Shown: piece after piece, positions 36,255 to 64,000 of the stretch
Position numbering within the stretch: the first letter of the stretch is position 1
How the letters are laid out: each line of letters begins with the position of its first letter
Assembly: GCA_030142905.1 (NCBI GenBank)
Contig: JASJOG010000564.1
Location: 47,667 to 111,666 of the forward strand
Direction of reading: 5' to 3'
From: Heliopora coerulea
Lineage: Eukaryota > Cnidaria > Anthozoa > Scleralcyonacea > Helioporidae
Length of the DNA: 64,000 nucleotides
Translations under genes and position numbers: made by a program
Notes under the pieces: model-generated
The model's input: only the letters and a program-made list of their open reading frames with translations
The model's database searches: none
Told to the model about the DNA's origin: nothing

Positions 36255-36294
36255 CGCTACTCGCTATCTATTTGTCGATAGATAGCGAGTAGCG
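36255..36294. repeat. Perfect inverted repeat, 16-bp arms
   Basis: The arms CGCTACTCGCTATCTA (36255-36270) and TAGATAGCGAGTAGCG (36279-36294) are exact reverse complements with an 8-base loop. The right arm ends three bases before the ATG of the short open frame at 36298. Confidence 0.9.
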
Positions 36295-36297
36295 AAA

Positions 36298-36411: not shown

Positions 36412-36514
36412 AACAATTAGATTATAAGCTCGAGATTTCTGAGGTGATAGTTGACGAGGGCTTCGCCCTCGTCAACTATCACCTCATAGAAATCTCCAGC
36501 ATATAATCGAATTG

Positions 36515-36516
<2 letters not shown>
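36412..36516. mobile_element. Foldback/MITE hairpin with about 50-nt arms
   Basis: The left arm AACAATTAGATTATA...GATAGTTGACGAGGGC and right arm GCCCTCGTCAACTATC...ATAATCGAATTGTT are near-complete reverse complements around a 3-base TTC centre. The core GATAGTTGACGAGGGC is perfectly paired. It begins exactly at the stop codon of the preceding fragment. Confidence 0.8.

Positions 36517-36517
<1 letters not shown>

Positions 36518-36556
<39 letters not shown>
36518..36556. repeat. (AT)n microsatellite
   Basis: A pure alternating AT tract of nearly 40 bases lies between the hairpin element and the satellite array. Confidence 0.95.
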
Positions 36557-36559
<3 letters not shown>

Positions 36560-39500
36560 CACCTTAACTTTTTACCAATTTTTATTATTTCAACTTAATT
36601 CCCCTGGGATTTATTACACCACTGCTTCTACAGGAGATAATCGTACAAAAATCTTTGGTTTTTCCCCATTTTTCGACCCCTTTTTAAAATTCCGAAATAG
36701 GTCCAAAACATGAAATTTTCAGGTGAGTAGAATAGATTTCCATATTTTGAGGCATTTTACAACGAAATTTAGAATTTTTAAGGTACAAAAGTTTCGCCAA
36801 AACTTAAAGGGGTTAACCTTTGCTTTTTCACTACTTTTCAACCAAATTTAAACTTTCGAAATAACCTTTAAATATGAAAGTTTAAGGCAAATAATATCGT
36901 TTGGCATCAATTGGAGGCACTTTACGCCGAAACTAAACAAAATATTTAACTTGGAAAAATTCAAGCAAAAAGTAAAGGGATTAACCTTTGCTTTTTGATC
37001 AGTTTTCGACCAATTTTAAACCTTCGAAATAAGCTCTAAATATGAAAGTTTAAGCCAAATAATATCGTTTTGCATCAATTGGAGGCACATTACAGGGAAA
37101 CTGAACAAAAAAATAGACTTCGAAAAATTCGACCAAAATGTAAAGGGGTTAACCTTTGGTTATTGACCAGTTTTTGACCAATTTTAAACTTTCGAAATAA
37201 GCCTTAAATATGAAAGTTTAAGGGAAATAATATCGTTTTGCATCAATTGGAGGCACTTTACACCTAAACTGAACAAAAAATTAGACTTCGAAAAATTCGA
37301 CCAAAAAGTAAAGGGATTAATCTTTGGTTTTTGACCAAATTTCGACCAATTTTAAACTTCGAAAAAACCCTAAAATACGAAAGTTTAAGGCAAATACTAT
37401 CGTTTTGCATCAATTGGAGGCACTTTACGCCGAAACTCAACAAAATATTAGAGTTGGAAAAATTCGACCAAAACGTAAAGGGGTTAACCTTTGGTTTTTG
37501 ACCAAATTTCGACCAATTTTAAATCTTCGAAAAAACCATAAAATACGAAAGTTTAAGGCAAATAATATCGTTTTGCATTAATTGGAGGCACTTTACGCCG
37601 AAACTCAACAAAATATTAGAGTTGGAAAAATTCGACCAAAAAGTAAAGGGGTTAACCTTTGGTTTTTGACCAAATTTCGACAAATTTTAAACCTTCGAAA
37701 TAAGCCTTAAATATGAAAGTTTAAACCAAATAATATCGTTTCATCAATTGGAGGCACTTTACACCTAAACTGAACAAAAAATTAGACTTCGAAAAATTCG
37801 ACCAAAAAGTAAAGGGGTTAACCTTTGGTTTTCGACCAAATTTCGACCAATTTTAAACCTTCGAAAAAACTCTAAAATACGAAAGTTTAAGGCAAATAAT
37901 ATCGTTTTGCATCAATTGGAGGCACTTTACGCCGAAACTCAACAAAATATTAGAGTTGGAAAAATTCGACCAAAACGTAAAGGGGTTAACCTTTGGTTTT
38001 TGACCAAATTTCGACCAATTTTAAATCTTCGAAAAAACCATAAAATACGAAAGTTTAAGGCAAATAATATCGTTTTGCATCAATTGGAGGCACTTTACAC
38101 CTAAACTGAACAAAAAATTAGATTTGGAAAAATTCGACCAAAAAGTAAAGGGGTTAACCTTTGGTTTTTGACCAAATTTCGACCAATTTTAAACATTCGA
38201 AAAAACCCTAAAATACGAAAGTTTAAGGCAAATAATATCGTTTTGCATTAAGTGGAGGCACTTTACACCTAAACTGAACAAAAAATTAGACTTGGAAAAA
38301 TTCGACCAAAAAGTAAAGGGGTTAACCTTTGGTTTTCGACCAAATTTCGACCAATTTTAAACATTCGAAAAAACCCTAAAATACGAACGTTTAAGGCAAA
38401 TAATATCGTTTTGCATCAATTGGAGGCACTTTACACCTAAACTGAACATAAAATTAGAGTTGGAAAAATTCGACCAAAAAGTAAAGGGGTTAACCTTTGG
38501 TTTTTGACCAAATTTCGACCAATTTTAAACCTTCGAAATAAGTCTTGAATACGAAAGTTTAAGGCAAACAATATCGTTTTGCATCAATTGGAGGAACTTT
38601 ACGCCGAAACTGAACAAAAAATTAGACTTGGAAAAATTCGACCAAAAAGTAAAGGGGTTAACCTTTGGTTTTTGACCAAATTTCGACCAATTTTAAACCT
38701 TCGAAATAAGTCTTGAATACGAAAGTTTAAGGCAAATAATATCGTTTTGCATCAATTGGAGGAACTTTACGCCGAAACTCAACAAAAAATTAGAGTTGGA
38801 AAAATTCGACCAAAAAGTAAAGGGGTTAGCCTTTGGTTTTTGACCAAATTTCGACCAATTTTAAACATTCGAAAAAACCCTAAAATACGAACGTTTAAGG
38901 CAAATAATATCGTTTTCCATCAATTGGAGGCACTTTACACCTAAACTGAACATAAAATTAGAGTTGGAAAAATTCGACCAAAAAGTAAAGGGGTTAACCT
39001 TTGGTTTTTGACCAAATTTCGACCAATTTTAAACCTTCGAAAAAACCCTAAAATACGAAAGTTTAAGGCAAATAATATCGTTTTGCATCAATTGGAGGCA
39101 CTTTACGCCGAAACTCAACAAAATATTAGAGTTGGAAAAATTCGACCAAAAAGTAAAGGGGTTAACCTTTGGTTTTTGACCAAAATTTCGACCAATTTTA
39201 AACCTTCGAAATAAGTCTTGAATACGAACGTTTAAGGCAAATAATATCGTTTTGCATCAATTGGAGGCACTTTACGCCGAAACTCAACAAAATATTAGAG
39301 TTGGAAAAATTCGACCAAAAAGTAAAGGGGTTAACCTTTGGTTTTTGACCAAATTTCGACCAATTTTAAACCTTCGAAATAAGTCTTTAATACAAAAGTT
39401 TAAGGCAAATAATATCGTTTTGCATCAATTGGAGGAACTTTACACCGAAACTGAACAAAAAATTAGACTTGGAAAAATTCGACCAAAAAGTAAAGGAGTT

Positions 39501-41274
39501 AGCCTTTGGTTTTTGACCAAATTTCGACCAATTTTAAACATTCGAAAAAACCCTAAAATACGAAAGTTTAAGGCAAATAATATCGTTTTGTATCAATTGG
39601 AGGCACTTTACACCTAAACTGAACAAAAAATTAGAGTTGGAAAAATTCGACCAAAAAGTAAAGGGGTTAACCTTTGATTTTTGACCAAATTTCGACCAAT
39701 TTTAAACCTTCGAAAAAACTCTAAAATACGAAAGTTTAAGGCAAATAATATCGTTTTGCATCAATTGGAGGAACTTTACACCGAAACTCAACAAAATATT
39801 AGAGTTGGAAAAATTCGACCAAAAAGTAAAGGGGTTAACCTTTGGTTTTTGACCAAATTTCGACCAATTTTAAACCTTCGAAATAAGTCTTGAATACGAA
39901 AGTTTAAGGCAAATAATATCGTTTTGCATTAATTGGAGGAACTTTACACCGAAACTCAACAAAATATTAGAGTTGGAAAAATTCGACCAAAAAGTAAAGG
40001 GGTTAACCTTTGGTTTTTGACCAAATTTCGACCAATTTTAAATCTTCGAAAAAACCATAAAATACGAAAGTTTAAGGCAAATAATATCGTTTTGCATTAA
40101 TTGGAGGCACTTTACGCCGAAACTCAACAAAATATTAGAGTTGGAAAAATTCGACCAAAAAGTAAAGGGGTTAACGTTTGGTTTTTGACCAAATTTCGAC
40201 CAATTTTAAACCTTCGAAATAAGTCTTTAATACGAAAGTTTAAGGCAAATAATATCGTTTTGCATCAATTGGAGGCACTTTACACCTAAACTGAACAAAA
40301 AATTAGAGTTGGAGAAATTCGACCAAAAAGTAAAGGGGTTAACCTTTGGTTTTTGACCAAATTTCGACCAATTTTAAACCTTCGAAAAAACCCTAAAATA
40401 CGAAAGTTTAAGGCAAATAATATCGTATTGCATCAATTGGAGGCACTTTACACCTAAACTGAACAAAAAATTAGAGTTGGAGAAATTCGACCAAAAAGTA
40501 AAGGGGTTAACGTTTGGTTTTTGACCAAATTTCGACCAATTTTAAACCTTCGAAAAAACCCTAAAATACGAAAGTTTAAGGCAAATAATATCGTTTTGCA
40601 TCAATTGGGGGCACTTTACGCCGAAACTCAACAAAATATTAGAGTTGGAAAAATTCGACCAAAAAGTAAAGGGGTTAACCTTTGGTTTTTGACCAAATTT
40701 CGACCAATTTTAAACCTTCGAAAAAACCCTAAAATACGAAAGTTTAAGGCAAATAATATCGTTTTGCATCAATTGGAGGCACTTTACACCTAAACTGAAC
40801 AAGAAATTAGAGTTGGAAAAATTCGACCAAAAAGTAAAGGGGTTAGCCTTTGGTTTTTGACCAAATTTCGACCAATTTTAAACATTCGAAAAAACCCTAA
40901 AATACGAACGTTTAAGGCAAATAATATCGTTTTGCATCAATTGGAGGCACTTTACACCTAAACTGAATATAAAATTAGAGTTGGAAAAATTCGACCAAAA
41001 AGTAAAGGGGTTAACCTTTGGTTTTTGACCAAATTTCGACCAATTTTAAATCTTCGAAAAAACCCTAAAATACGAAAGTTTAAGGCAAATAATATCGTTT
41101 TGCATCAATTGGAGGCACTTTACACCGAAACTCAACAAAATATTAGAGTTGGAAAAATTCGACCAAAAAGTAAAGGGGTTAACCTTTGGTTTTTGACCAA
41201 AATTTCGACCAATTTTAAACCTTCGAAATAAGTCTTGAATACGAACGTTTAAGGCAAATAATATCGTTTTGTAT

Positions 41275-44200
41275 CAATTGGAGGCACTTTACGCCGAAAC
41301 TCAACAAAATATTAGAGTTGGAAAAATTCGACCAAAAAGTAAAGGGGTTAACCTTTGGTTTTTGACCAAATTTCGACCAATTTTAAACCTTCGAAATAAG
41401 TCTTGAATACGAAAGTTTAAGGCAAATAATATCGTTTTGCATCAATTGGAGGCACTTTACACCGAAACTGAACAAAAAATTAGACTTGGAAAAATTCGAC
41501 CAAAAAGTAAAGGGGTTAGCCTTTGGTTTTTGACCAAATTTCGACCAATTTTAAACATTCGAAAAAACCCTAAAATACGAACGTTTAAGGCAAATAATAT
41601 CGTTTTGCATCAATTGGAGGCACTTTACACCTAAACTGAACATAAAATTAGAGTTGGAAAAATTCGACCAAAAAGTAAAGGGGTTAACCTTTGGTTTTTG
41701 ACCAAATTTCGACCAATTTTAAATCTTCGAAAAAACCCTAAAATACGAAAATTTAAGGCAAATAATATCGTTTTCCATCAATTGGAGGCACTTTACGCCG
41801 AAACTCAACAAAATATTAGAGTTGGAAAAATTCGACCAAAAAGTAAAGGGGTTAACCTTTGGTTTTTGACCAAAATTTCGACCAATTTTAAACCTTCGAA
41901 ATAAGTCTTGAATACGAACGTTTAAGGCAAATAATATCGTTTTGCATCAATTGGAGGCACTTTACGCCGAAACTCAACAAAATATTAGAGTTGGAAAAAT
42001 TCGACCAAAAAGTAAAGGGGTTAACCTTTGGTTTTTGACCAAATTTCGACCAATTTTAAACCTTCGAAAAAACCCTAAAATACGAAAGTTTAAGGCAAAT
42101 AATATCGTTTTGCATCAATTGGAGGAACTTTACACCGAAACTGAACAAAAAATTAGACTTGGAAAAATTCGACCAAAAAGTAAAGGAGTTAGTCTTTGGT
42201 TTTTGACAAAATTTCGACCAATTTTAAACATTCGAAAAAACCCTAAAATACGAAAGTTTAAGGCAAATAATATCGTTTTGTATCAATTGGAGGCACTTTA
42301 CACCTAAACTGAACAAAAAATTAGAGTTGGAAAAATTCGACCAAAAAGTAAAGGGGTTAACCTTTGGTTTTTGACCAAATTTCGACCAATTTTAAACCTT
42401 CGAAATAAGTCTTGAATACGAAAGTTTAAGGCAAATAATATCGTTTTGCATCAATTGGAGGCACTTTACACCGAAACTCAACAAAATATTAGAGTTGGAA
42501 AAATTCGACCAAAAAGTAAAGGGGTTAACCTTTGGTTTTGACCAATTTTCGACCAATTTTAAACCTTCGAAATAAGTCTTGAATACGAAAGTTTAAGGCA
42601 AATAATATCGTTTTGCATCAATTGGATTAACTTTACACCGAAACTCAACAAAATATTAGAGTTGGAAAAATTCGACCAAAAAGTAAAGGGGTTAACCTTT
42701 GGTTTTTGACCAAATTTCGACCAATTTTAAATCTTCGAAAAAACCATAAAATACGAAAGTTTAAGGCAAATAATATCGTTTTGCATTAATTGGAGGCACT
42801 TTACGCCGAAACTCAACAAAATATTAGAGTTGGAAAAATTCGACCAAAAAGTAAAGGGGTTAACCTTTGGTTTTTGACCAAATTTCGACCAATTTTAAAC
42901 ATTCGAAAAAACCCTAAAATACGAAAGTTTAAGGCAAATAATATCGTTTTGCATCAATTGGAGGCACTTTACGCCGAAACTCAACAAAATATTAGAGTTG
43001 GAAAAATTCGACCAAAAAGTAAAGGGGTTAACCTTTGGTTTTTGACCAAATTTCGACCAATTTTAAACCTTCGAAATAAGTCTTGAATACGAAAGTTTAA
43101 GGCAAATAATATCGTTTTGCATCAATTGGAGGCACTTTACACCGAAACTGAACAAAAAATTAGACTTGGAAAAATTCGACCAAAAAGTAAAGGGGTTAGC
43201 CTTTGGTTTTTGACCAAATTTCGACCAATTTTAAACATTCGAAAAAACCCTAAAATACGAACGTTTAAGGCAAATAATATCGTTTTGCATCAATTGGAGG
43301 CACTTTACACCTAAACTGAACATAAAATTAGAGTTGGAAAAATTCGACCAAAAAGTAAAGGGGTTAACCTTTGGTTTTTGACCAAATTTCGACCAATTTT
43401 AAATCTTCGAAAAAACCCTAAAATACGAAAGTTTAAGGCAAATAATATCGTTTTCCATCAATTGGAGGCACTTTACGCCGAAACTCAACAAAATATTAGA
43501 GTTGGAAAAATTCGACCAAAAAGTAAAGGGGTTAACCTTTGGTTTTTGACCAAAATTTCGACCAATTTTAAACCTTCGAAATAAGTCTTGAATACGAACG
43601 TTTAAGGCAAATAATATCGTTTTGCATCAATTGGAGGCACTTTACGCCGAAACTCAACAAAATATTAGAGTTGGAAAAATTCGACCAAAAAGTAAAGGGG
43701 TTAACCTTTGGTTTTTGACCAAATTTCGACCAATTTTAAATCTTCGAAAAAACCTAAAATACGAAAGTTTAAGGCAAATAATATCGTTTTGCATCAATTG
43801 GAGGAACTTTACACCGAAACTGAACAAAAAATTAGACTTGGAAAAATTCGACCAAAAAGTAAAGGAGTTAGTCTTTGGTTTTTGACAAAATTTCGACCAA
43901 TTTTAAACATTCGAAAAAACCCTAAAATACGAAAGTTTAAGGCAAATAATATCGTTTTGTATCAATTGGAGGCACTTTACACCTAAACTGAACAAAAAAT
44001 TAGAGTTGGAAAAATTCGACCAAAAAGTAAAGGGGTTAACCTTTGGTTTTTGACCAAATTTCGACCAATTTTAAACCTTCGAAATAAGTCTTGAATACGA
44101 AAGTTTAAGGCAAATAATATCGTTTTGCATCAATTGGAGGCACTTTACACCGAAACTCAACAAAATATTAGAGTTGGAAAAATTCGACCAAAAAGTAAAG

Positions 44201-44633
44201 GGGTTAACCTTTGGTTTTGACCAATTTTCGACCAATTTTAAACCTTCGAAATAAGTCTTGAATACGAAAGTTTAAGGCAAATAATATCGTTTTGCATCAA
44301 TTGGATTAACTTTACACCGAAACTCAACAAAATATTAGAGTTGGAAAAATTCGACCAAAAAGTAAAGGGGTTAACCTTTGGTTTTTGACCAAATTTCGAC
44401 CAATTTTAAATCTTCAAAAAAACCATAAAATACGAAAGTTTAAGGCAAATAATATCGTTTTGCATTAATTGGAGGCACTTTACGCCGAAACTCAACAAAA
44501 TATTAGAGTTGGAAAAATTCGACCAAAAAGTAAAGGGATTAACCTTTGGTTTTTGACCAAATTTCGACCAATTTTAAACATTCGAAAAAACCCTAAAATA
44601 CGAAAGTTTAAGGCAAATAATATCGTTTTGCAT
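41275..44633 (+). repeat. Ten-monomer higher-order duplication (two copies of about 1,680 bp)
   Basis: Segments 41275-42954 and 42955-44633 are adjacent and nearly identical, offset 1680 then 1679 after a 1-base deletion near 43754. They share rare variants such as TTGGATTAAC (42624 and 44303) and TTTGACCAATTTTCG (42536 and 44215). Similarity breaks sharply on both outer sides. Confidence 0.85.
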
Positions 44634-47600
44634 CAATTGGAGGCACTTTACAACTAAACTGAACAAAAAATTAGAGTTGGAGAAATTCGACCAAAAAGTA
44701 AAGGGGTTAACCTTTGGTTTTTGACCAAATTTCGACCAATTTTAAACCTTCGAAAAAACCCTAAAATACGAACGTTTAAGGCAAATAATATCGTTTTGCA
44801 TCAATTGGAGGCACTTTACACCTAAACTGAACAAAAAATTAGAGTTGGAGAAATTCGACCAAAAAGTAAAGGGGTTAACCTTTGGTTTTTGACCAAATTT
44901 CGACCAATTTTAAACCTTCGAAAAAACCCTAAAATACGAAAGTTTAAGGCAAATAATATCGTTTTGCATCAATTGGAGGCACTTTACACCTAAACTGAAC
45001 AAAAAATTAGAGTTGGAGAAATTCGACCAAAAAGTAAAGGGGTTAACCTTTGGTTTTTGACCAAATTTCGACCAATTTTAAACCTTCGAAAAAACCCTAA
45101 AATACGAAAGTTTAAGGGAAATAATATCGTTTTGCATCAATTGGAGACACTTTACACCTAAACTGAACATAAAATTAGAGTTGGAAAAATTCGACCAAAA
45201 AGTAAAGGGGTTAACCTTTGGTTTTTGACCAAATTTCGACCAATTTTAAATCTTCGAAAAAACCCTAAAATACGAAAGTTTAAGGCAAATAATATCGTTT
45301 TGCATCAATTGGAGGCATTTTACGCCGAAACTCAACAAAATATTAGAGTTGGAAAAATTCGACCAAAAAGTAAAGGGGTTAACCTTTGGTTTTTGACCAA
45401 ATTTCGACCAATTTTAAACCTTCGAAAAAACCCTAAAATACGAAAGTTTAAGGCAAATAATATCGTTTTGCATCAATTGGAGGCACTTTACACCTAAACT
45501 GAACAAAAAATTAGAGTTGGAAAAATTCGACCAAAAAGTAAAGGGGTTAACCTTTGGTTTTTGACCAAATTTCGACCAATTTTAAACCTTCGAAAAAACC
45601 CTAAAATACGAAAGTTTAAGGCAAATAATATCGTTTTGCATCAATTGGAGGCACTTTACACCGAAACTCAACAAAATATTAGAGTTGGAAAAATTCGACC
45701 AAAAAGTAAAGGGGTTAACCTTTGGTTTTTGACCAAATTTCGACCAATTTTAAACCTTCGAAATAAGTCTTGAATACGAAAGTTTAAGGCAAATAATATC
45801 GTTTTGCATCAATTGGAGGCACTTTACACCGAAACTCAACAAAATATTAGAGTTGGAAAAATTCGACCAAAAAGTAAAGGGGTTAACCTTTGGTTTTGAC
45901 CAAATTTCGACCAATTTTAAACCTTCGAAATAAGTCTTGAATACGAAAGTTTAAGGCAAATAATATCGTTTTGCATCAATTGGAGGAACTTTACACCGAA
46001 ACTCAACAAAATATTAGAGTTGGAAAAATTCGACCAAAAAGTAAAGGGGTTAACCTTTGGTTTTTGACCAAATTTCGACCAATTTTAAATCTTCGAAAAA
46101 ACCATAAAATACGAAAGTTTAAGGCAAATAATATCGTTTTGCATCAATTGGAGGAACTTTACACCGAAACTGAACAAAAAATTAGACTTGGAAAAATTCG
46201 ACCAAAAAGTAAAGGAGTTAGTCTTTGGTTTTTGACCAAATTTCGACCAATTTTAAACATTCGAAAAAACCCTAAAATACGAAAGTTTAAGGCAAATAAT
46301 ATCGTTTTGCATCAATTGGAGGCACTTTTCACCTAAACTGAACAAAAAATTAGAGTTGGAGAAATTCGACCAAAAAGTAAAGGGGTTAACCTTTGGTTTT
46401 TGATCAAATTTCGACCAATTTTAAACCTTCGAAAAAACCCTAAAATACGAAAGTTTAAGGCAAATAAAATCGTTTTGCATCAATTGGAGGCACTTTACAC
46501 CTAAACTGAACAAAAAATTAGAGTTGGAAAAATTCGACCAAAAAGTAAAGGGGTTAACCTTTGGTTCTCGACCAAATTTCGACCAATTTTAAACCTTCGA
46601 AATAAGTCTTTAATACGAAAGTTTAAGGCAAATAATATCGTTTTGCATCAATTGGAGGCACTTTACGCCGAAACTCAACAAAATATTAGAGTTGGAAAAA
46701 TTCGACCAAAAAGTAAAAGGGTTAACCTTTGGTTTTTGACCAAATTTCGACCAATTTTAAACCTTCGAAAAAACCCTAAAATACGAAAGTTTAAGGCAAA
46801 TAATATCGTTTTGCATCAATTGGAGGCACTTTACACCTAAACTGAACAAAAAATTAGAGTTGGAGAAATTCGACCAAAAAGTAAAGGGGTTAACCTTTGG
46901 TTTTTGACCAAATTTCGACCAATTTTAAACATTCGAAAAAACCCTAAAATACGAAAGTTTAAGGCAAATAATATCGTTTTGCATCAATTGGAGGCACTTT
47001 ACGCCGAAACTCAACAAAATATTAGAGTTGGAAAAATTCGACCAAAAAGTAAAGGGGTTAACCTTTGGTTTTTGACCAAATTTCGACCAATTTTAAACCT
47101 TCGAAATAAGTCTTGAATACGAAAGTTTAAGGCAAATAATATCGTTTTGCATCAATTGGAGGCACTTTACACCTAAACTGAACAAAAAATTAGAGTTGGA
47201 AAAATTCGACCAAAAAGTAAAGGGGTTAACCTTTGGTTTTTGACCAAATTTCGACCAATTTTAAACCTTCGAAATAAGTCTTGAATACGAAAGTTTAAGG
47301 CAAATAATATCGTTTTGCATCAATTGGAGGAACTTTACACCGAAACTGAACAAAAAATTAGACTTGGAAAAATTCGACCAAAAAGTAAAGGGGTTAACCT
47401 TTGGTTTTTGACAAAATTTCGACCAATTTTAAATCTTCGAAAAAACCATAAAATACGAAAGTTTAAGGCAAATAATATCGTTTTGCATTAATTGGAGGCA
47501 CTTTACGCCGAAACTCAACAAAATATTAGAGTTGGAAAAATTCGACCAAAAAGTAAAGGGGTTAACCTTTGGTTTTTGACCAAATTTCGACCAATTTTAA

Positions 47601-48273
47601 ACATTCCAAAAAACCCTAAAATACGAAAGTTTAAGGCAAATAATATCGTTTTGCATCAATTGGAGGCACTTTACACCTAAACTGAAAAAAAAATTAGAGT
47701 TGGAGAAATTCGACCAAAAAGTAAAGGGGTTAACCTTTGGTTTTTGACCAAATTTCGACCAATTTTAAACCTTCGAAAAAACCCTAAAATACGAAAGTTT
47801 AAGGCAAATAATATCGTTTTGTATCAATTGGAGGCACTTTACACCTAAACTGAACAAAAAATTAGAGTTGGAGAAATTCGACCAAAAAGTAAAGGGGTTA
47901 ACCTTTGGTTTTTGACCAAATTTCGACCAATTTTAAACCTTCGAAAAAACCCTAAAATACGAAAGTTTAAGGCAAATAATATCGTTTTGCATCAATTGGA
48001 GGCACTTTACGCCGAAACTCAACAAAATATTAGAGTTGGAAAAATTCGACCAAAAAGTAAAGGGGTTAACCTTTGGTTTTTGACCAAATTTCGACCAATT
48101 TTAAACATTCCAAAAAACCCTAAAATACGAAAGTTTAAGGCAAATAATATCGTTTTGCATCAATTGGAGGCACTTTACACCTAAACTTAAAAAAAAATTA
48201 GAGTTGGAAAAATTCGACCAAAAAGTAAAGGGGTTAACCTTTGGTTTTTGACCAAATTTCGACCAATTTTAAA

Positions 48274-49290: not shown

Positions 49291-49837
49291 AAAAACCCTA
49301 AAATACGAAAGTTTAAGGCAAATAATATCGTTTTGCATCAATTGGAGGCACTTTACGCCGAAACTCAACAAAATATTAGAGTTGGAAAAATTCGACCAAA
49401 AAGTAAAGGGGTTAACCTTTGGTTTTTGACCAAATTTCGACCAATTTTAAACCTTCGAAAAAACCCTAAAATACGAAAGTTTAAGGCAAATAATATCGTT
49501 TTGCATCAATTGGAGGCACTTTACACCTAAACTGAACAAAAAATTAGAGTTGGAAAAATTCGACCAAAAAGTAAAGGGGTTAACCTTTGGTTTTTGAACA
49601 AATTTCGACCAATTTTAAACCTTCGAAAAAACTCTAAAATACGAAAGTTTAAGGCAAATAATATCGTTTTGCATCAATTGGAGGCACTTTACGCCGAAAC
49701 TCAACAAAATATTAGAGTTGGAAAAATTCGACCAAAACCTAAAGGGGTTAACCTTTGGTTTTTTACCAAATTTAGACCAATTTTAAACCTTCGAAATAAG
49801 TCTTGAATACGAAAGTTTAAGGCAAATAATATCGTTT

Positions 49838-52800
49838 TGCATCAATTGGAGGAACTTTACACCGAAACTGAACAAAAAATTAGACTTGGAAAAATTCGAC
49901 CAAAAAGTAAAGGGGTTAGCCTTTGGTTTTTGACCAAATTTCGACCAATTTTAAACATTCGAAAAAACCCAAAAATACGAACGTTTAAGGCAAATAATAT
50001 CGTTTTGCATCAATTGGAGGCACTTTACACCTAAACTGAACATAAAATTAGAGTTGGAAAAATTCGACCAAAAAGTAAAGGGGTTAACCTTTGGTTTTTG
50101 ACAAAATTTCGACCAATTTTAAATCTTCGAAAAAACCATAAAAAACGAAAGTTTAAGGCAAATAATATCGTTTTGCATTAATTGGAGGCACTTTACGCCG
50201 AAACTCAACAAAATATTAGAGTTGGAAAAATTCGACCAAAAAGTAAAGGGGTTAACCTTTGGTTTTTGACCAAATTTCGACCAATTTTAAACATTCGAAA
50301 AAACCCTAAAATACGAAAGTTTAAGGTAAATAATATCGTTTTGCATCAATTGGAGGCACTTTACACCGAAACTCAACAAAATATTAGAGTTGGAAAAATT
50401 CGACCAAAAAGTAAAGGGGTTAACCTTTGGTTTTGACCAAATTTCGACCAATTTTAAACCTTCGAAATAAGTCTTGAATACGAAAGTTTAAGGCAAATAA
50501 TATCGTTTTGCATCAATTGGTGGAACTTTACACCGAAACTCAACAAAATATTAGAGTTGGAAAAATTCGACCAAAAAGTAAAGGGGTTAACCTTTGGTTT
50601 TTGACCAAATTTCGACCAATTTTAAATCTTCGAAAAAACCATAAAATACGAAAGTTTAAGGCAAATAATATCGTTTTGCATTAATAGGAGGCACTTTACG
50701 CCGAAACTCAACAAAATATTAGAGTTGGAAAAATTCGACCAAAAAGTAAAGGGGTTAACGTTTGGTTTTTGACCAAATTTCGACCAATTTTAAACATTCG
50801 AAAAAACCCTAAAATACGAAAGTTTAAGGCAAATAATATCGTTTTGCATCAATTGGAGGCACTTTACACCTAAACTGAACAAAAAATTAGAGTTGGAGAA
50901 ATTCGACCAAAAAGTAAAGGGGTTAACCTTTGGTTTTTGACCAAATTTCGACCAATTTTAAACCTTCGAAATAAGTCTTGAATACGAAAGTTTAAGGCAA
51001 ATAATATCGTTTTGCATCAATTGGAGGCACTTTACGCCGAAACTCAACAAAATATTAGAGTTGGAAAAATTCGACCAAAACGTAAAGGGGTTAACCTTTG
51101 GTTTTTGACCAAATTTCGACCAATTTTAAATCTTCGAAAAAACCATAAAATACGAAAGTTTAAGGCAAATAATATCGTTTTGCATTAATTGGAGGCACTT
51201 TACACCGAAACTCAACAAAATATTAGAGTTGGAAAAATTCGAACAAAAAGTAAAGGGGTTAACCTTTGGTTTTTGACCAAATTTCGACCAATTTTAAACC
51301 TTCGAAATAAGTCTTGAATACGAAAGTTTAAGGCAAATAATATCGTTTTGCATCAATTGGAGGAACTTTACACCGAAACTGAACAAAAAATTAGACTTGG
51401 AAAAATTCGACCAAAAAGTAAAGGGGTTCGCCTTTGGTTTTTGACCAAATTTCGACCAATTTTAAACATTCGAAAAAACCCTAAAATACGAACGTTTAAG
51501 GCAAATAATATCGTTTTGCATCAATTGGAGGCACTTTACACCTAAACTGAACATAAAATTAGATTTGGAAAAATTCGACCAAAAAGTAAAGGGGTTAACC
51601 TTTGGTTTTTGACCAAATTTCGAACAATTTTAAATCTTCGAAAAAACAATAAAATACGAAAGTTTAAGGCAAATAATATCGTTTTGCATTAATTGGAGGC
51701 ACTTTACGCCGAAACTCAACAAAATATTAGAGTTGGAAAAATTCGACCAAAAAGTAAAGGGGTTAACCTTTGGTTTTTGACCAAATTTCGACCAATTTTA
51801 AACCTTCGAAAAAACCCTAAAATACGAAAGTTTAAGGCAAATAATATCGTTTTGCATCAATTGGAGGCACTTTACACCTAAACTGAACAAAAAATTAGAG
51901 TTGGAGAAATTCGACCAAAAAGTAAAGGGGTTAACCTTTGGTTTTTGACCAAATTTCGACCAATTTTAAACCTTTGAAAAAACCCTAAAATACGAAAGTT
52001 TAAGGCAAATAATATCGTTTTGCATCGATTGGAGGCACTTTACGCCGAAACTCAACAAAATATTAGAGTTGGAAAAATTCGACCAAAAAGTAAAGGGGTT
52101 AACCTTTGGTTTTTGACCAAATTTCGACCAATTTTAAACCTTCGAAAAAACCCTAAAATATGAAAGTTTAAGGCAAATAATATCGTTTTCCATCAATTGG
52201 AGGCACTTTACACCTAAACTGAACAAAAAATTAGAGTTGGAAAAATTCGACCAAAAAGTAAAGGGGTTAACCTTTGGTTTTTGACCAAATTTCGACCAAT
52301 TTTAAATCTTCGAAAAAACCATAAAATACGAAAGTTTAAGGCAAATAATATCGTTTTGCATTAATTGGAGGCACTTTACGCCGAAACTCAACAAAATATT
52401 AGAGTTGGAAAAATTCGACCAAAAAGTAAAGGGGTTAACCTTTGGTTTTTGACCAAATTTCGACCAATTTTAAACATTCGAAAAAACCCTAAAATACGAA
52501 AGTTTAAGGCAAATAATATCGTTTTGCATCAATTGGAGGCACTTTACACCTAAACTGAACAAAAAATTAGAGTTGGAGAAATTCGACCAAAAAGTAAAGG
52601 GGTTAACCTTTGGTTTTTGACCAAATTTCGACCAATTTTAAACCTTCGAAAAAACCCTAAAATACGAAAGTTTAAGGCAAATAATATCGTTTTGCATCAA
52701 TTGGAGGCACTTTACGCCGAAACTCAACAAAATATTAGAGTTGGAAAAATTCGACCAAAAAGTAAAGGGGTTAACCTTTGGTTTTTGACCAAATTTCGAA

Positions 52801-55800
52801 CAATTTTAAACCTTCGAAAAAACCCTAAAATACGAAAGTTTAAGGCAAATAATATCGTTTTGCATCAATTGGAGGCACTTTACACCTAAACTGAACAAAA
52901 AATTAGAGTTGGAGAAATTCGACCAAAAAGTAAAGGGGTTAACCTTTGGTTTTTGACCAAATTTCGACCAATTTTAAACCTTCGAAATAAGTCTTGAATA
53001 CGAAAGTTTAAGGCAAATAATATCGTTTTGCATCAATTGGAGGAACTTTACACCTAAACTGAACAAAAAATTAGACTTGGAAAAATTCGACCAAAAAGTA
53101 AAGGGGTTAGCCTTTGGTTTTTGACCAAATTTCGACCAATTTTAAACATTCGAAAAAACCCAAAAATACGAACGTTTAAGGCAAATAATATCGTTTTGCA
53201 TCAATTGGAGGCACTTTACACCTAAACTGAACATAAAATTAGAGTTGGAAAAATTCGACCAAAAAGTAAAGGGGTTAACCTTTGGTTTTTGACAAAATTT
53301 CGACCAATTTTAAATCTTCGAAAAAACCATAAAAAACGAAAGTTTAAGGCAAATAATATCGTTTTGCATTAATTGGAGGCACTTTACGCCGAAACTCAAC
53401 AAAATATTAGAGTTGGAAAAATTCGACCAAAAAGTAAAGGGGTTAACCTTTGGTTTTTGACCAAATTTCGACCAATTTTAAACATTCGAAAAAACCCTAA
53501 AATACGAAAGTTTAAGGTAAATAATATCGTTTTGCATCAATTGGAGGCACTTTACACCGAAACTCAACAAAATATTAGAGTTGGAAAAATTCGACCAAAA
53601 AGTAAAGGGGTTAACCTTTGGTTTTGACCAAATTTCGACCAATTTTAAACCTTCGAAATAAGTCTTGAATACGAAAGTTTAAGGCAAATAATATCGTTTT
53701 GCATCAATTGGTGGAACTTTACACCGAAACTCAACAAAATATTAGAGTTGGAAAAATTCGACCAAAAAGTAAAGGGGTTAACCTTTGGTTTTTGACCAAA
53801 TTTCGACCAATTTTAAATCTTCGAAAAAACCATAAAATACGAAAGTTTAAGGCAAATAATATCGTTTTGCATTAATTGGAGGCACTTTACGCCGAAACTC
53901 AACAAAATATTAGAGTTGGAAAAATTCGACCAAAAAGTAAAGGGGTTAACGTTTGGTTTTTGACCAAATTTCGACCAATTTTAAACATTCGAAAAAACCC
54001 TAAAATACGAAAGTTTAAGGCAAATAATATCGTTTTGCATCAATTGGAGGCACTTTACACCTAAACTGAACAAAAAATTAGAGTTGGAGAAATTCGACCA
54101 AAAAGTAAAGGGGTTAACCTTTGGTTTTTGACCAAATTTCGACCAATTTTAAACCTTCGAAATAAGTCTTGAATACGAAAGTTTAAGGCAAATAATATCG
54201 TTTTGCATCAATTGGAGGCACTTTACGCCGAAACTCAACAAAATATTAGAGTTGGAAAAATTCGACCAAAACGTAAAGGGGTTAACCTTTGGTTTTTGAC
54301 CAAATTTCGACCAATTTTAAATCTTCGAAAAAACCATAAAATACGAAAGTTTAAGGCAAATAATATCGTTTTGCATTAATTGGAGGCACTTTACACCGAA
54401 ACTCAACAAAATATTAGAGTTGGAAAAATTCGAACAAAAAGTAAAGGGGTTAACCTTTGGTTTTTGACCAAATTTCGACCAATTTTAAACCTTCGAAATA
54501 AGTCTTGAATACGAAAGTTTAAGGCAAATAATATCGTTTTGCATCAATTGGAGGAACTTTACACCGAAACTGAACAAAAAATTAGACTTGGAAAAATTCG
54601 ACCAAAAAGTAAAGGGGTTCGCCTTTGGTTTTTGACCAAATTTCGACCAATTTTAAACATTCGAAAAAACCCTAAAATACGAACGTTTAAGGCAAATAAT
54701 ATCGTTTTGCATCAATTGGAGGCACTTTACACCTAAACTGAACATAAAATTAGATTTGGAAAATTTCGACCAAAAAGTAAAGGGGTTAACCTTTGGTTTT
54801 TGACCAAATTTCGAACAATTTTAAATCTTCGAAAAAACCATAAAATACGAAAGTTTAAGGCAAATAATATCGTTTTGCATTAATTGGAGGCACTTTACGC
54901 CGAAACTCAACAAAATATTAGAGTTGGAAAAATTCGACCAAAAAGTAAAGGGGTTAACCTTTGGTTTTTGACCAAATTTCGACCAATTTTAAACCTTCGA
55001 AAAAACCCTAAAATACGAAAGTTTAAGGCAAATAATATCGTTTTGCATCAATTGGAGGCACTTTACACCTAAACTGAACAAAAAATTAGAGTTGGAGAAA
55101 TTCGACCAAAAAGTAAAGGGGTTAACCTTTGGTTTTTGACCAAATTTCGACCAATTTTAAACCTTCGAAAAAACCCTAAAATACGAAAGTTTAAGGCAAA
55201 TAATATCGTTTTCCATCAATTGGAGGCACTTTACACCTAAACTGAACAAAAAATTAGAGTTGGAAAAATTCGACCAAAAAGTAAAGGGGTTAACCTTTGG
55301 TTTTTGACCAAATTTCGACCAATTTTAAATCTTCGAAAAAACCATAAAATACGAAAGTTTAAGGCAAATAATATCGTTTTGCATTAATTGGAGGCACTTT
55401 ACGCCGAAACTCAACAAAATATTAGAGTTGGAAAAATTCGACCAAAAAGTAAAGGGGTTAACGTTTGGTTTTTGACCAAATTTCGACCAATTTTAAACAT
55501 TCGAAAAAACCCTAAAATACGAAAGTTTAAGGCAAATAATATCGTTTTGCATCAATTGGAGGCACTTTACACCTAAACTGAACAAAAAATTAGAGTTGGA
55601 GAAATTCGACCAAAAAGTAAAGGGGTTAACCTTTGGTTTTTGACCAAATTTCGACCAATTTTAAACCTTCGAAAAAACCCTAAAATACGAAAGTTTAAGG
55701 CAAATAATATCGTTTTGCATCAATTGGAGGCACTTTACGCCGAAACTCAACAAAATATTAGAGTTGGAAAAATTCGACCAAAAAGTAAAGGGGTTAACCT

Positions 55801-56222
55801 TTGGTTTTTGACCAAATTTCGAACAATTTTAAACCTTCGAAAAAACCCTAAAATACGAAAGTTTAAGGCAAATAATATCGTTTTGCATCAATTGGAGGCA
55901 CTTTACACCTAAACTGAACAAAAAATTAGAGTTGGAGAAATTCGACCAAAAAGTAAAGGGGTTAACCTTTGGTTTTTGACCAAATTTCGACCAATTTTAA
56001 ACATTCGAAAAAACCCTAAAATACGAAAGTTTAAGGCAAATAATATCGTTTTGCATCAATTGGAGGAACTTTACACCTAAACTGAACAAAAAATTAGACT
56101 TGGAAAAATTCGACCAAAAAGTAAAGGGGTTAGCCTTTGGTTTTTGACCAAATTTCGACCAATTTTAAACATTCGAAAAAACCCTAAAATACGAACGTTT
56201 AAGGCAAATAATATCGTTTTCC
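49838..56222 (+). repeat. Nineteen-monomer higher-order duplication (about 3.19 kb, two copies)
   Basis: The first copy begins near 49838 and the second near 53030 (offset 3191-3192). Shared rare variants include AACCCAAAAATACG, CATAAAAAACG, AAGGTAAATAA, ATTCGAACAAAAAG and GGGGTTCGCC. From about 55.1 kb the offset changes to about 3,023, showing that one monomer was lost from the second copy or gained in the first. Confidence 0.8.
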
Positions 56223-57639
56223 ATCAATTGGAGGCACTTTACACCTAAACTGAACATAAAATTAGAGTTGGAAAAATTCGACCAAAAAGTAAAGGGGTTA
56301 ACCTTTGGTTTTTGACCAAATTTCGAACAATTTTAAATCTTCGAAAAAACCATAAAATACGAAAGTTTAAGGCAAATAATATCGTTTTGCATTAATTGGA
56401 GGCACTTTACGCCGAAACTCAACAAAATATTAGAGTTGGGAAAATTCGACCAAAAAGTAAAGGGGTTAACCTTTGGTTTTTGACCAAATTTCGACCAATT
56501 TTAAACCTTCGAAAAAACCCTAAAATACGAAAGTTTAAGGCAAATAATATCGTTTTGCATCAATTGGAGGAACTTTACACCTAAACTGAACAAAAAATTA
56601 GAGTTGGAGAAATTCGACCAAAAAGTAAAGGGGTTAACCTTTGGTTTTTGACCAAATTTCGACCAATTTTAAACCTTCGAAAAAACCCTAAAATACGAAA
56701 GTTTAAGGCAAATAATATCGTTTTGCATCAATTGGAGGCACTTTACGCCGAAACTCAACAAAATATTAGAGTTGGAAAAATTCGACCAAAAAGTAATGGG
56801 GTTAACCTTTGGTTTTTGACCAAATTTCGACCAATTTTAAACCTTCGAAAAAACCCTAAAATATGAAAGTTTAAGGCAAATAATATCGTTTTCCATCAAT
56901 TGGAGGCACTTTACACCTAAACTGAACAAAAAATTAGAGTTGGAAAAATTCGACCAAAAAGTAAAGGGGTTAACCTTTGGTTTTTGACCAAATTTCGACC
57001 AATTTTAAATCTTCGAAAAAACCATAAAATACGAAAGTTTAAGGCAAATAATATCGTTTTGCATTAATTGGAGGCACTTTACGCCGAAACTCAACAAAAT
57101 ATTAGAGTTGGAAAAATTCGACCAAAAAGTAAAGGGGTTAACGTTTGGTTTTTGACCAAATTTCGAAAAATTTTAAACATTCGAAAAAACCCTAAAATAC
57201 GAAAGTTTAAGGCAAATAATATCGTTTTGCATCAATTGGAGGCACTTTACACCTAAACTGAACAAAAAATTAGAGTTGGAGAAATTCGACCAAAAAGTAA
57301 AGGGGTTAACCTTTGGTTTTTGACCAAATTTCGACCAATTTTAAACCTTCGAAAAAACCCTAAAATACGAAAGTTTAAGGCAAATAATATCGTTTTGCAT
57401 CAATTGGAGGCACTTTACGCCGAAACTCAACAAAATATTAGAGTTGGAAAAATTCGACCAAAAAGTAAAGGGGTTAACCTTTGGTTTTTGACCAAATTTC
57501 GAACAATTTTAAACCTTCGAAAAAACCCTAAAATACGAAAGTTTAAGGCAAATAATATCGTTTTGCATCAATTGGAGGCACTTTACACCGAAACTGAACA
57601 AAAAATTAGAGTTGGAGAAATTCGACCAAAAAGTAAAGG

Positions 57640-60600
57640 GGTTAACCTTTGGTTTTTGACCAAATTTCGACCAATTTTAAACCTTCGAAAAAACCCTAAA
57701 ATACGAAAGTTTAAGGCAAATAATATCGTTTTGCATCAATTGGAGGCACTTTACACCTAAACTGAACAAAAAATTAGAGTTGGAGAAATTAGACTAAAAA
57801 GTAAAGGGGTTAACCTTTGGTTTTTGACCAAATTTCGACCAATTTTAAACCTTCGAAAAAACCATAAAATACGAAAGTTTAAGGCAAATAATATCGTTTT
57901 GCATCAATTGGAGGCACTTTACGCCGAAACTCAACAAAATATTAGAGTTGGAAAAATTCGACCAAAAAGTAAAGGGGTTAACCTTTGGTTTTTGACCAAA
58001 TTTCGACCAATTTTAAACCTTCGAAAAAACCCTAAAATACGAAAGTTTAAGGCAAATAATATCGTTTTCCATCAATTGGAGGCACTTTAAACCTAAACTG
58101 AACAAAAAATTAGGGTTGGAAAAATTCGACCAAAAAGTAAAGGGGTTAACCTTTGGTTTTTGACCAAATTTCGACCAATTTTAAACCTTCGAAAAAACTC
58201 TAAAATACGAAAGTTTAAGGCAAATAATATCGTTTTTCATCAATTGGAGGCACTTTACGCCGAAACTCAACAAAATATTAGAGTTGGAAAAATTCGACCA
58301 AAACGTAAAGGGGTTAACCTTTGGTTTTTGACCAAATTTCGAACAATTTTAAATCTTCGAGAAAACCATAAAATACGAAAGTTTAAGGCAAATAATATCG
58401 TTTTGCATTAATTGGAGGCACTTTACACCGAAACTCAACAAAATATTAGAGTTGGAAAAATTCGACCAAAAAGTAAAGGGGTTAACCTTTGGTTTTTGAC
58501 CAAATTTCGACCAATTTTAAACCTTCGAAATAAGTCTTGAATACGAAAGTTTAAGGCAAATAATATCGTTTTGCATCAATTGGAGGAACTTTACACCGAA
58601 ACTGAACAAAAAATTACACTTGGAAAAATTCGACCAAAAAGTAAAGGGGTTAGCCTTTGGTTTTTGACCAAATTTCGACCAATTTTAAACATTCGAAAAA
58701 ACCCTAAAATACGAACGTTTAAGGCAAATAATATCGTTTTGCATCAATTGGAGGCACTTTTCACCTAAACTGAACATAAAATTAGAGTTGGAAAAATTCG
58801 ACAAAAAGTAAAGGGGTTAACCTTTGGTTTTTGACCAAATTTCGACCAATTTTAAATCTTCGAAAAAACCATAAAATACGAAAGTTTAAGGAAAATAATA
58901 TCGTTTTGCATTAATTGGAGGCACTTTACGCCGAAACTCAACAAAATATTAGAGTTGGAAAAATTCGACCAAAAAGTAAAGGGGTTAACCTTTGGTTTTT
59001 GACCAAAATTTCGACCAATTTTAAACCTTCGAAATAAGTCTTGAATACGTACGTTTAAGGCAAATAATATCGTTTTGCATCAATTGGAGGCACTTTACGC
59101 CGAAACTCAACAAAATATTAGAGTTGGAAAAATTCGACCAAAAAGTAAAGGGGTTAACCTTTGGTTTTTGACCAAATTTCGACCAATTTTAAACCTTCGA
59201 AAAAACCCTAAAATACGAAAGTTTAAGGCAAATAATATCGTTTTGCATTAATTGGAGGCACTTTACACCTAAACTGAACAAAAAATTAGAGTTGGAGAAA
59301 TTAGACCAAAAAGTAAAGGGGTTAACCTTTGGTTTTTGACCAAATTTCGACCAATTTTAAACCTTCGAAAAAACCATAAAATACGAAAGTTTAAGGCAAA
59401 TAATATCGTTTTGCATCAATTGGAGGCACTTTACGCCGAAACTCAACAAAATATTAGAGTTGGAAAAATTCGACCAAAAAGTAAAGGGGTTAACCTTTGG
59501 TTTTTGACCAAATTTCGACCAATTTTAAACCTTCGAAAAAACCCTAAAATACGAAAGTTTAAGGCAAATAATATCGTTTTCCATCAATTGGAGGCACTTT
59601 AAACCTAAACTGAACAAAAAATTAGGGTTGGAAAAATTCGACCAAAAAGTAAAGGGGTTAACCTTTGGTTTTTGACCAAATTTCGACCAATTTTAAACCT
59701 TCGAAAAAACTCTAAAATACGAAAGTTTAAGGCAAATAATATCGTTTTTCATCAATTGGAGGCACTTTACGCCGAAACTCAACAAAATATTAGAGTTGGA
59801 AAAATTCGACCAAAACGTAAAGGGGTTAACCTTTGGTTTTTGACCAAATTTCGAACAATTTTAAATCTTCGAGAAAACCATAAAATACGAAAGTTTAAGG
59901 CAAATAATATCGTTTTGCATTAATTGGAGGCACTTTACACCGAAACTCAACAAAATATTAGAGTTGGAAAAATTCGACCAAAAAGTAAAGGGGTTAACCT
60001 TTGGTTTTTGACCAAATTTCGACCAATTTTAAACCTTCGAAATAAGTCTTGAATACGAAAGTTTAAGGCAAATAATATCGTTTTGCATCAATTGGAGGAA
60101 CTTTACACCGAAACTGAACAAAAAATTACACTTGGAAAAATTCGACCAAAAAGTAAAGGGGTTAGCCTTTGGTTTTTGACCAAATTTCGACCAATTTTAA
60201 ACATTCGAAAAAACCCTAAAATACGAACGTTTAAGGCAAATAATATCGTTTTGCATCAATTGGAGGCACTTTTCACCTAAACTGAACATAAAATTAGAGT
60301 TGGAAAAATTCGACAAAAAGTAAAGGGGTTAACCTTTGGTTTTTGACCAAATTTCGACCAATTTTAAATCTTCGAAAAAACCATAAAATACGAAAGTTTA
60401 AGGAAAATAATATCGTTTTGCATTAATTGGAGGCACTTTACGCCGAAACTCAACAAAATATTAGAGTTGGAAAAATTCGACCAAAAAGTAAAGGGGTTAA
60501 CCTTTGGTTTTTGACCAAATTTCGACCAATTTTAAACATTCGAAAAAACCCTAAAATACGAAAGTTTAAGGCAAATAATATCGTTTTGCATCAATTGGAG

Positions 60601-63450
60601 GCACTTTACACCTAAACTGAACAAAAAATTAGAGTTGGAGAAATTCGACCAAAAAGTAAAGGGGTTAACCTTTGGTTTTTGACCAAATTTCGACCAATTT
60701 TAAACCTTCGAAAAAACCCTAAAATACGAAAGTTTAAGGCAAATAATATCGTTTTGCATCAATTGGAGGCACTTTACACCTAAACTGAACAAAACATTAG
60801 AGTTGGAGAAATTCGACCAAAAAGTAAAGGGGTTAACCTTTGGTTTTTGACCAAATTTCGACCAATTTTAAACCTTCGAAAAAACCCTAAAATACGAAAG
60901 TTTAAGGCAAATAATATCGTTTTGCATCAATTGGAGGCACTTTACGCCGAAACTCAACAAAATATTAGAGTTGGAAAAATTCGACCAAAAAGTAAAGGGG
61001 TTAACCTTTGGTTTTTGACCAAATTTCGATCAATTTTAAACCTTCGAAAAAACCCTAAAATACGAAAGTTTAAGGCAAATAATATCGTTTTCCATCAATT
61101 GGAGGCACTTTACGCCGAAACTGAACAAAAAATTAGACTTGGAAAAATTCGACCAAAAAGTAAAGGGGTTAACCTTTGGTTTTTGACCAAATTTCGACCA
61201 ATTTTAAACCTTCGAAAAAACTCTAAAATACGAAAGTTTAACGCAAATAATATCGTTTTGCATCAATTGGAGGCACTTTACGCCGAAACTCAACAAAATA
61301 TTAGAGTTGGAAAAATTCGACCAAAACGTAAAGGGGTTAACCTTTGGTTTTTGACCAAATTTCGACCAATTTTAAATCTTCGAAAAAACCCTAAAATACG
61401 AAAGTTTAAGGCAAATAATATCGTTTTGCATTAATTGGAGGCACTTTACACCGAAACTCAACAAAATATTAGAGTTGGAAAAATTCGACCAAAAAGTAAA
61501 GGGGTTAACCTTTGGTTTTTGACCAAATTTCGACCAATTTTAAACCTTCGAAAAAACCCTAAAATACGAAAGTTTAAGGCAAATAATATCGTTTTGCATC
61601 AATTGGAGGCACTTTACGCCGAAACTCAACAAAATATTAGAGTTGGAAAAATTCGACCAAAAAGTAAAGGGGTTAACCTTTGGTTTTTGACCAAATTTCG
61701 ACCAATTTTAAACCTTCGAAAAAACCCTAAAATATGAAAGTTTAAGGCAAATAATATCGTTTTCCATCAATTGGAGGCACTTTACACCTAAACTGAACAA
61801 AAAATTAGAGTTGGAAAAATTCGACCAAAAAGTAAAGGGGTTAACCTTTGGTTTTTTACCAAATTTCGACCAATTTTAAATCTTCGAAAAAACCATAAAA
61901 TACGAAAGTTTAAGGCAAATAATATCGTTTTGCATTAATTGGAGGCACTTTACGCCGAAACTCAACAAAATATTAGAGTTGGAAAAATTCGACCAAAAAG
62001 TAAAGGGGTTAACGTTTGGTTTTTGACCAAATTTCGAAAAATTTTAAACATTCGAAAAAACCCTAAAATACGAAAGTTTAAGGCAAATAATATCGTTTTG
62101 CATCAATTGGAGGCACTTTACACCTAAACTGAACAAAAAATTAGAGTTGGAGAAATTCGACCAAAAAGTAAAGGGGTTAACCTTTGGTTTTTGACCAAAT
62201 TTCGACCAATTTTAAACCTTCGAAAAAACCCTAAAATACGAAAGTTTAAGGCAAATAATATCGTTTTGCATCAATTGGAGGCACTTTACGCCGAAACTCA
62301 ACAAAATATTAGAGTTGGAAAAATTCGACCAAAAAGTAAAGGGGTTAACCTTTGGTTTTTGACCAAATTTCGAACAATTTTAAACCTTCGAAAAAACCCT
62401 AAAATACGAAAGTTTAAGGCAAATAATATCGTTTTGCATCAATTGGAGGCACTTTACACCGAAACTGAACAAAAAATTAGAGTTGGAGAAATTCGACCAA
62501 AAAGTAAAGGGGTTAACCTTTGGTTTTTGACCAAATTTCGACCAATTTTAAACCTTCGAAAAAACCCTAAAATACGAAAGTTTAAGGCAAATAATATCGT
62601 TTTGCATCAATTGGAGGCACTTTACACCTAAACTGAACAAAAAATTAGAGTTGGAGAAATTCGACCAAAAAGTAAAGGGGTTAACCTTTGGTTTTTGACC
62701 AAATTTCGACCAATTTTAAACCTTCGAAAAAACCCTAAAATACGAAAGTTTAAGGCAAATAATATCGTTTTGCATCAATTGGAGGCACTTTACGCCGAAA
62801 CTCAACAAAATATTAGAGTTGGAAAAATTCGACCAAAAAGTAAAGGGGTTAACCTTTGGTTTTTGACCAAATTTCGACCAATTTTAAACCTTCGAAAAAA
62901 CCCTAAAATACGAAAGTTTAAGGCAAATAATATCGTTTTCCATCAATTGGAGGCACTTTAAACCTAAACTGAACAAAAAATTAGGGTTGGAAAAATTCGA
63001 CCAAAAAGTAAAGGGGTTAACCTTTGGTTTTTGACCAAATTTCGACCAATTTTAAACCTTCGAAAAAACTCTAAAATACGAAAGTTTAAGGCAAATAATA
63101 TCGTTTTTCATCAATTGGAGGCACTTTACGCCGAAACTCAACAAAATATTAGAGTTGGAAAAATTCGACCAAAACGTAAAGGGGTTAACCTTTGGTTTTT
63201 GACCAAATTTCGAACAATTTTAAATCTTCGAGAAAACCATAAAATACGAAAGTTTAAGGCAAATAATATCGTTTTGCATTAATTGGAGGCACTTTACACC
63301 GAAACTCAACAAAATATTAGAGTTGGAAAAATTCGACCAAAAAGTAAAGGGGTTAACCTTTGGTTTTTGACCAAATTTCGACCAATTTTAAACCTTCGAA
63401 ATAAGTCTTGAATACGAAAGTTTAAGGCAAATAATATCGTTTTGCATTAA
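57640..63450 (+). repeat. Nested 9-, 20- and 29-monomer higher-order duplications
   Basis: A block containing the rare CACTTTAAACCTAAAC and TTAGGGTTGG variants occurs at about 58090, 59602 and 62962, that is 1,512 bp (9 monomers) and then 3,360 bp (20 monomers) apart. The flanking block with the rare TTTCGAAAAATTTT variant occurs at about 57161 and 62032, offset about 4,871 bp (29 monomers). Nine plus twenty equals twenty-nine, so one history of unequal exchange explains all three spacings. Confidence 0.8.
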
Positions 63451-64000
63451 TTGGAGGCACTTTACACCGAAACTCAACAAAATATTAGAGTTGGAAAAAT
63501 TCGACCAAAAAGTAAAGGGGTTAGCCTTTGGTTTTTGACCAAATTTCGACCAATTTTAAACATTCGAAAAAACCCTAAAATAGGAACGTTTAAGGCAAAT
63601 TATATCGTTTTGCATCAATTGGAGGCACTTTACACCTAAACTGAACATAAAATTAGAGTTGGAAAAATTCGACCAAAAAGTAAAGGGGTTAACCTTTGGT
63701 TTTTGACCAAATTTCGAACAATTTTAAATCTTCGAAAAAACCATAAAATACGAAAGTTTAAGGCAAATAATATCGTTTTGCATTAATTGGAGGCACTTTA
63801 CGCCGAAACTCAACAAAATATTAGAGTTGGAAAAATTCGACCAAAAAGTAAAGGGGTTAACCTTTGGTTTTTGACCAAATTTCGACCAATTTTAAACATT
63901 CGAAAAAACCCTAAAATACGAAAGTTTAAGGCAAATAATATCGTTTTGCATCAATTGGAGGCACTTTACACCTAAACTGAACAAAAAATTAGAGTTGGAG

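Follow-up and report, generated by a model that had tools for sequence, protein, structure and literature searches.

A 168-bp satellite family with arrays at several loci of the Heliopora coerulea genome

A 168-bp tandem repeat fills the right-hand part of a 64,000-nucleotide stretch of the Heliopora coerulea genome (contig JASJOG010000564.1, positions 47,667–111,666; hereafter the window), and its nucleosome-like period raises the question of whether it belongs to a centromere, to heterochromatin of another kind, or to DNA that moves by itself. The centromere and heterochromatin DNA of cnidarians is little described. No description of an octocoral satellite was found among the best-ranked literature titles and abstract openings, and the word “satellite” occurs 0 times in the main text of the Heliopora genome paper (PMC10267220). 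We compared the repeat with the assembly of this species (429,824,877 bases, 769 contigs), in which the window's contig is designated C517; the published summary of the HiFi assembly gives 429.9 Mb in 769 contigs (PMC10267220). The reading that we favor, at about even odds (roughly 0.5), is that the repeat belongs to a multi-locus octocoral satellite family, in which an array and an adjoining non-satellite sequence, designated X, were copied between places as a module, with duplicated heterochromatin in the vicinity of centromeres or of chromosome ends as the likeliest setting.

The satellite array of the window

The array, which we designate the C517 subtype of family A, occupies positions 36,793–64,000 of the window on the forward strand. 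Tandem Repeats Finder (TRF) reported it as a single array (36,793–63,999; period 168; 162 copies; 94% matches). Cutting at a fixed anchor, followed by alignment, gave 162 anchors and 161 monomers, 144 of which were exactly 168 bp long. A 38-base core of the monomer matched 149 times on the forward strand of the window and 0 times on the reverse strand; from about 36.65 kb to the window's end, the monomers run head to tail on one strand only. The array is satellite DNA, that is to say, a long head-to-tail series of near-identical units. A first-pass annotation of the window had described a nucleosome-length satellite of at least 27 kb, with about 160 copies of 168 bp in one orientation, and these counts bear it out; its start, placed at 36,645, agrees with that of a monomer profile, which reaches 36,650.

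At the 5′ edge of the array, the profile recovered two decayed partial monomers (36,650–36,892, forward strand), the outer one at 36,650–36,728 (36.5 bits, E = 2.2e-10) and the inner one at 36,744–36,892 (90.3 bits). They are followed by two monomers that match the consensus at 88.1 and 88.7%, and the subsequent monomers match it at 93.5–99.4%. The left edge, which had been annotated as diverged and homogenized inward, is indeed diverged; the divergence covers only some three to four units and forms no long gradient. The annotated extension of the array past the window is to be corrected, since C517 (111,666 bp) ends exactly where the window does. Because the array runs into this assembly break, neither its full length nor any continuation is readable.

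No regular higher-order period was found in the window array, in which the mean identity between monomers was 0.945–0.956 at every lag from 1 to 59. Nevertheless, there were 37 runs of at least three consecutive monomer pairs at ≥98% identity, compared with a mean of 10.0 and a maximum of 20 in 200 permutations of monomer order, and the longest near-identical run comprised 13 monomers, compared with a maximum of 6 in 200 order permutations. In place of a fixed higher-order unit, the array thus holds irregular duplications of blocks that comprise at most 13 monomers. On the forward strand, these duplications, read as diagonal runs of numbered monomers (m), include (i) a 10-monomer block with an adjacent duplicate (41,261–44,619; m26–m35 and m36–m45; lag 10, 99.6%); (ii) a 13-monomer block (49,829–55,202; m77–m89 and m96–m108; lag 19, 99.8%); (iii) an 11-monomer block (56,715–63,433; m118–m128 and m147–m157; lag 29, 99.7%); and (iv) a 7-monomer block that overlaps the 11-monomer one (within 56,715–63,433; m124–m130 and m133–m139; lag 9). 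By contrast, family A forms a higher-order repeat of 12 monomers (2,016 bp) on contig C317, where the mean identity at lag 12 was 0.990 (51 pairs) versus 0.925 overall; long stretches agree at 167–168 of 168 positions and are broken by less-alike or out-of-register stretches. The higher-order structure that had been annotated for the window is therefore a true one on C317, and in the window takes the form of irregular blocks with no regular period.

The association between 22 common variable sites of the window array (r2) was 0.41 at distances under 6 bp, 0.09 at 15–30 bp and 0.02 at 110–140 bp, the permuted value being about 0.01, and all four allele combinations were present in 58% of the site pairs. 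The monomers are mosaics of shared alleles, and such near-free combination is the mark of frequent exchange between them.

Arrays on other contigs and their common flank

A search of the whole assembly, which the first-pass annotation had proposed, revealed that the family is not confined to one locus. The 38-base core, with at most three mismatches, yielded 1,649 matches (1,217 forward and 432 reverse), versus 0 for a control pattern, and an 80-base pattern yielded 119 matches. The placement of arrays, which is based on roughly the first hundred positions listed per search and on fetched stretches, assigns them to at least five contigs (C42, C77, C317, C517, and C534). C77 carries an array at 205.5–226.2 kb of 742 kb. 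C317 (216 kb) carries an interrupted array at 27.6–73.9 kb, whose part at 52–67 kb is known from pattern matches only, and a second one at 81.0–84.5 kb. The array of C534 (1,368.1–1,405.1 kb of 1,787 kb) is also interrupted, with the part at 1,376.0–1,402.5 kb known from pattern matches only. C42 (925 kb) carries a reverse array at 313.1–315.1 kb and a forward array at about 641.5–727.2 kb, the latter detected in all 10 stretches that were sampled or read there. The assembled arrays range from about 2 to 86 kb, and those on C42, C77, and C534 (contigs of 0.7–1.8 Mb) are interstitial, with non-satellite DNA on both sides. The assembled abundance (1,649 × 168 bp = 277 kb, or 0.06%) is a lower bound. 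According to Table 2 of the genome paper, binning and haplotig purging reduced the assembly from 1,309.7 to 428.2 Mb (PMC10267220); this filtering may have removed pure-satellite contigs, and the assembled abundance is therefore no measure of the true abundance.

Comparison among four arrays (C517, C77, C317, and C534) revealed identities of 0.925–0.947 within arrays versus 0.88–0.915 between them, and identical monomers were shared in none of the six pairs of arrays. Each of these arrays carries private variants; the family evolves in concert at several loci and works like other concertedly evolving nucleosome-length satellites.

All six readable outer 3′ array edges (those of C77, C534, the C42 reverse array, the C42 forward array, and both C317 arrays) join one non-satellite sequence, X, which is up to about 6.6 kb long and is 86–95% identical between loci in its longer pieces. 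The copies of C534 and C77 share collinear pieces of 91–94% identity that sum to about 5.9 kb, and those at the C317, C42 forward, and C42 reverse edges are 86–95% identical over shorter lengths. On C317, the order is array–X–array–X. Decayed edge monomers are also common to the X-side edges; at the right edge of the C534 array, for example, the monomer profile gave 142, 63, 38, 22, and 13 bits. A constant non-satellite sequence thus adjoins the arrays at several sites on four contigs, and the 3′ edges of these arrays are best understood as copied junctions. The X-flanked arrays would accordingly descend from one ancestral array-plus-X unit, which was duplicated or moved and was then homogenized separately at each site.

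The left flanks behave differently. In the 36.6 kb to the left of the window array, no match of at least 100 bp to the C534 copy of X was found; the only matches to the C77 flank (82–83%, 153–319 bp) were to an interspersed repeat. The stretches read to the left of the C77, C42 forward, and C517 arrays likewise contained no piece of the C534 copy.

Origin and chromosomal setting of the arrays

We propose that segmental duplication, or exchange between chromosomes, carried copies of an ancestral module of array plus X to several chromosomal places. There, each array would have been homogenized and lengthened through unequal crossing-over and gene conversion, whereas the monomers at its edge would have dropped out of this exchange and decayed. 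If each nucleosome held one monomer, the result would be regular heterochromatin, and the function of the arrays, if any, would be the packaging of heterochromatin of a pericentromeric or subtelomeric kind. Pericentromeric or subtelomeric duplicons can carry satellites. The arrays resemble such duplicons in the kilobase flanks that are common to loci beside the satellite and in a 36-bp telomere-like tract within X of C534 and C77; unlike duplicons placed on chromosomes, they are known on contigs only, which continue for about 130–515 kb past the arrays on the X side. The 168-bp array may thus mark heterochromatin near centromeres or chromosome ends. A bolder generalization, which we regard as doubtful, is that the centromeric or pericentromeric satellites of octocorals are copied between chromosomes as one module, in which a tandem array is tied to a constant partner, X, of about 6.6 kb. 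The edges of arrays would then be junctions that are inherited, and it would be moves of the module, not local amplification, that seed new sites of heterochromatin or of centromeres.

Several observations weigh against the copied heterochromatic module, and some of them suit a mobile element. About 420 of the 432 reverse matches are without a position, and all arrays are positioned here from the assembled sequence. The 3′ edge of the window array is not readable, and its membership in the module is hence a prediction. The points at which the C534, C77, and C317 copies (C317 read except for 75.5–80.0 kb; matches of at least 150 bp listed) cease to resemble one another all lie within about 0.2 kb of a single position near 6.6 kb, as would suit a mobile element and a duplicon equally well. 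Each of the two C42 copies of X departs from the sequence of C534 and C77 after about 3 kb, and one of them returns to it beyond insertions. The left flanks are generally not common, and two of five (C534 and C317) carry inverted, diverged pieces of X (75–87%) that resemble terminal inverted repeats. It is a possible, though clearly less probable, alternative that X belongs to a non-autonomous transposable element whose cargo includes the 168-bp tandem repeat, and that the arrays grew inside its inserted copies. The common flank at every readable outer 3′ end and the nearly common end point of X agree with such an element. Satellite repeats carried by Helentron-type elements of oyster (PMC7492417) and plant retrotransposon-derived satellites (PMC7004042) are comparable in that, at more than one locus, a tandem array adjoins an unchanging flank of non-satellite DNA. 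However, X has so far revealed no hallmark of an element (in 5 kb of it, none of seven open reading frames (ORFs) of at least 80 aa reached the Pfam cutoff, two having sub-cutoff matches), the coral arrays reach about 40–86 kb, and no X piece of the C534 type lies in the stretches read to the left of three arrays.

Compared with the module reading, an active centromere satellite, whose arrays would bear CENP-A nucleosomes and a kinetochore, seems unlikely. Primate alpha satellite has a 171-bp monomer and higher-order repeats. Family A resembles it in its nucleosome-length monomer, array-specific variants, multi-monomer higher-order repeat (the 12-mer on C317), and decayed edge monomers; it differs in that it has no CENP-B box, its assembled arrays measure tens of kilobases and not megabases, its higher-order structure in the window is irregular, its array ends have a common flank, and it is known only as sequence. 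A centromere role is possible insofar as array-private variants and a true higher-order repeat would be expected of one. Decayed edges of this family, however, can be copied junctions and are therefore weak evidence for a centromere edge, and no kinetochore is required for either decayed edges or private variants to arise, which lowers the weight of the argument. The visible left edge of the window array is not among the common X junctions. The best match of the monomer to the CENP-B box was 11 of 17 positions and was equaled in 131 of 500 shuffles; many centromeric satellites have no such box. Against a centromere also stand the shortness of the assembled arrays, the interstitial position of those on C42, C77, and C534, the presence on C42 of a more homogeneous satellite that would compete (described below) and of two 168-bp arrays about 285 kb apart, and the common X edges, which argue for copied modules. 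In Hydra, a 183-bp repeat was proposed as a centromere candidate for its abundance far above that of other tandem repeats (PMC4053949); it is likened here, by its description and not by its sequence, as a nucleosome-length tandem repeat of a cnidarian. CENP-A itself is possible in cnidarians, one gene being reported for Hydractinia (PMC5011920). A marker of a stony coral was mapped to one centromere by fluorescence in situ hybridization (PMC12355185), and putative centromeres of Acropora were linked to peaks of long interspersed nuclear elements and to low recombination (PMC11577847).

That the family is merely an interstitial satellite of a neutral or selfish kind, without any role in the chromosome and dispersed by chance and by unequal crossing-over, is very unlikely. 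Such a satellite would agree with the low assembled abundance, the interstitial sites, and the unclustered conservation among family A arrays, but not with the exact length and one-sided conservation retained between subfamilies (both described below). Least probable of all is an assembly artefact or contaminating DNA: binning and haplotig purging did shape the assembly, but it was built from HiFi reads (PMC10267220), the four compared arrays carry distinct variants on four contigs, and the window's contig bears an animal gene.

Related and neighboring sequences

The C42 reverse block is adjoined, from about 315.1 to 355 kb, by another 168-bp monomer, designated subfamily B (48 copies at 91% where the reading was contiguous, and detected in 4 of 4 samples taken between 330 and 355 kb). 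About 285 kb of C42 lie between this B array and an A array. B aligns with A without gaps over 168 bp at 75.6% identity. Columns 0–83 are 88% alike versus 63% for the rest, and this clustering was reached in 0 of 5,000 permutations, a pattern that could mean a constrained half. Among five A arrays, the mixed C42 reverse block being left out, conservation was not clustered (P = 0.99), and a sliding entropy over four arrays gave P = 0.21. Clustering was clear only between A and B and in a seven-group comparison that included B; the halves differed within arrays in only two of six (P = 0.009 and 0.014). Given the P of 0.99 among the A arrays, we do not claim a conserved binding box in the monomer. 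A DNA hairpin at AAAGGGGTTAACCTTT is also not claimed (z of −1.5 to −1.9; 11–18 of 200 shuffles as good), and the AA/TT periodicity of the monomer, whose peaks are harmonics of 168 and have no control, was not used.

A different satellite, with a 187-bp monomer, a GC content of about 0.5, and a long near-palindrome, occupies C42:607,235–630,673. Its pattern matched the genome 355 times; among the 100 matches listed, 96 lay in this interval, 88 of those being exact over 72 bases, and the repeat is more homogeneous than the 168-bp family. The 187-bp repeat is also present on contig C374, where 0 of 18 samples contained the 168-bp family. An Rfam search of the 187-bp repeat returned only matches far below the family cutoff.

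Other sequences lie in or beside the arrays. The arrays of C317 (28,561–30,149) and C534 (1,372,992–1,374,580) are both interrupted by one 1,589-bp sequence, whose two copies are 98.6% identical. An inverted repeat with two 907-bp arms, 100% identical, is inserted in the C77 array (208,337–210,342); one arm includes a stretch encoding a GIY-YIG domain (26.2 bits, cutoff 22.6), which is Penelope-like. To the left of the C317 array, a 66-bp tandem repeat (93–96%) extends from about 12 to 18.5 kb.

In the window itself, an ORF of 419 aa (2,249–3,508, forward strand) lies 33 kb from the array and encodes a TAB3-like animal protein. It had eight protein matches; two of these carry names, and both are TAB3-like proteins of octocorals, in keeping with the cnidarian-like genome that the first-pass annotation had supposed. 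Neither this ORF nor five others of the window matched a Pfam family, and an Rfam search of the window returned one tRNA. Diverged repeats of about 154 bp lie within a 1.16-kb direct duplication (98% identical) at 32,221–34,801. At 36,203–36,521 lies an interspersed repeat that contains inverted repeats and matches, at 88% identity, part of the DNA to the left of the C534 array, and two tandem 221-bp copies, 99% identical, are located at 24,528–24,966.

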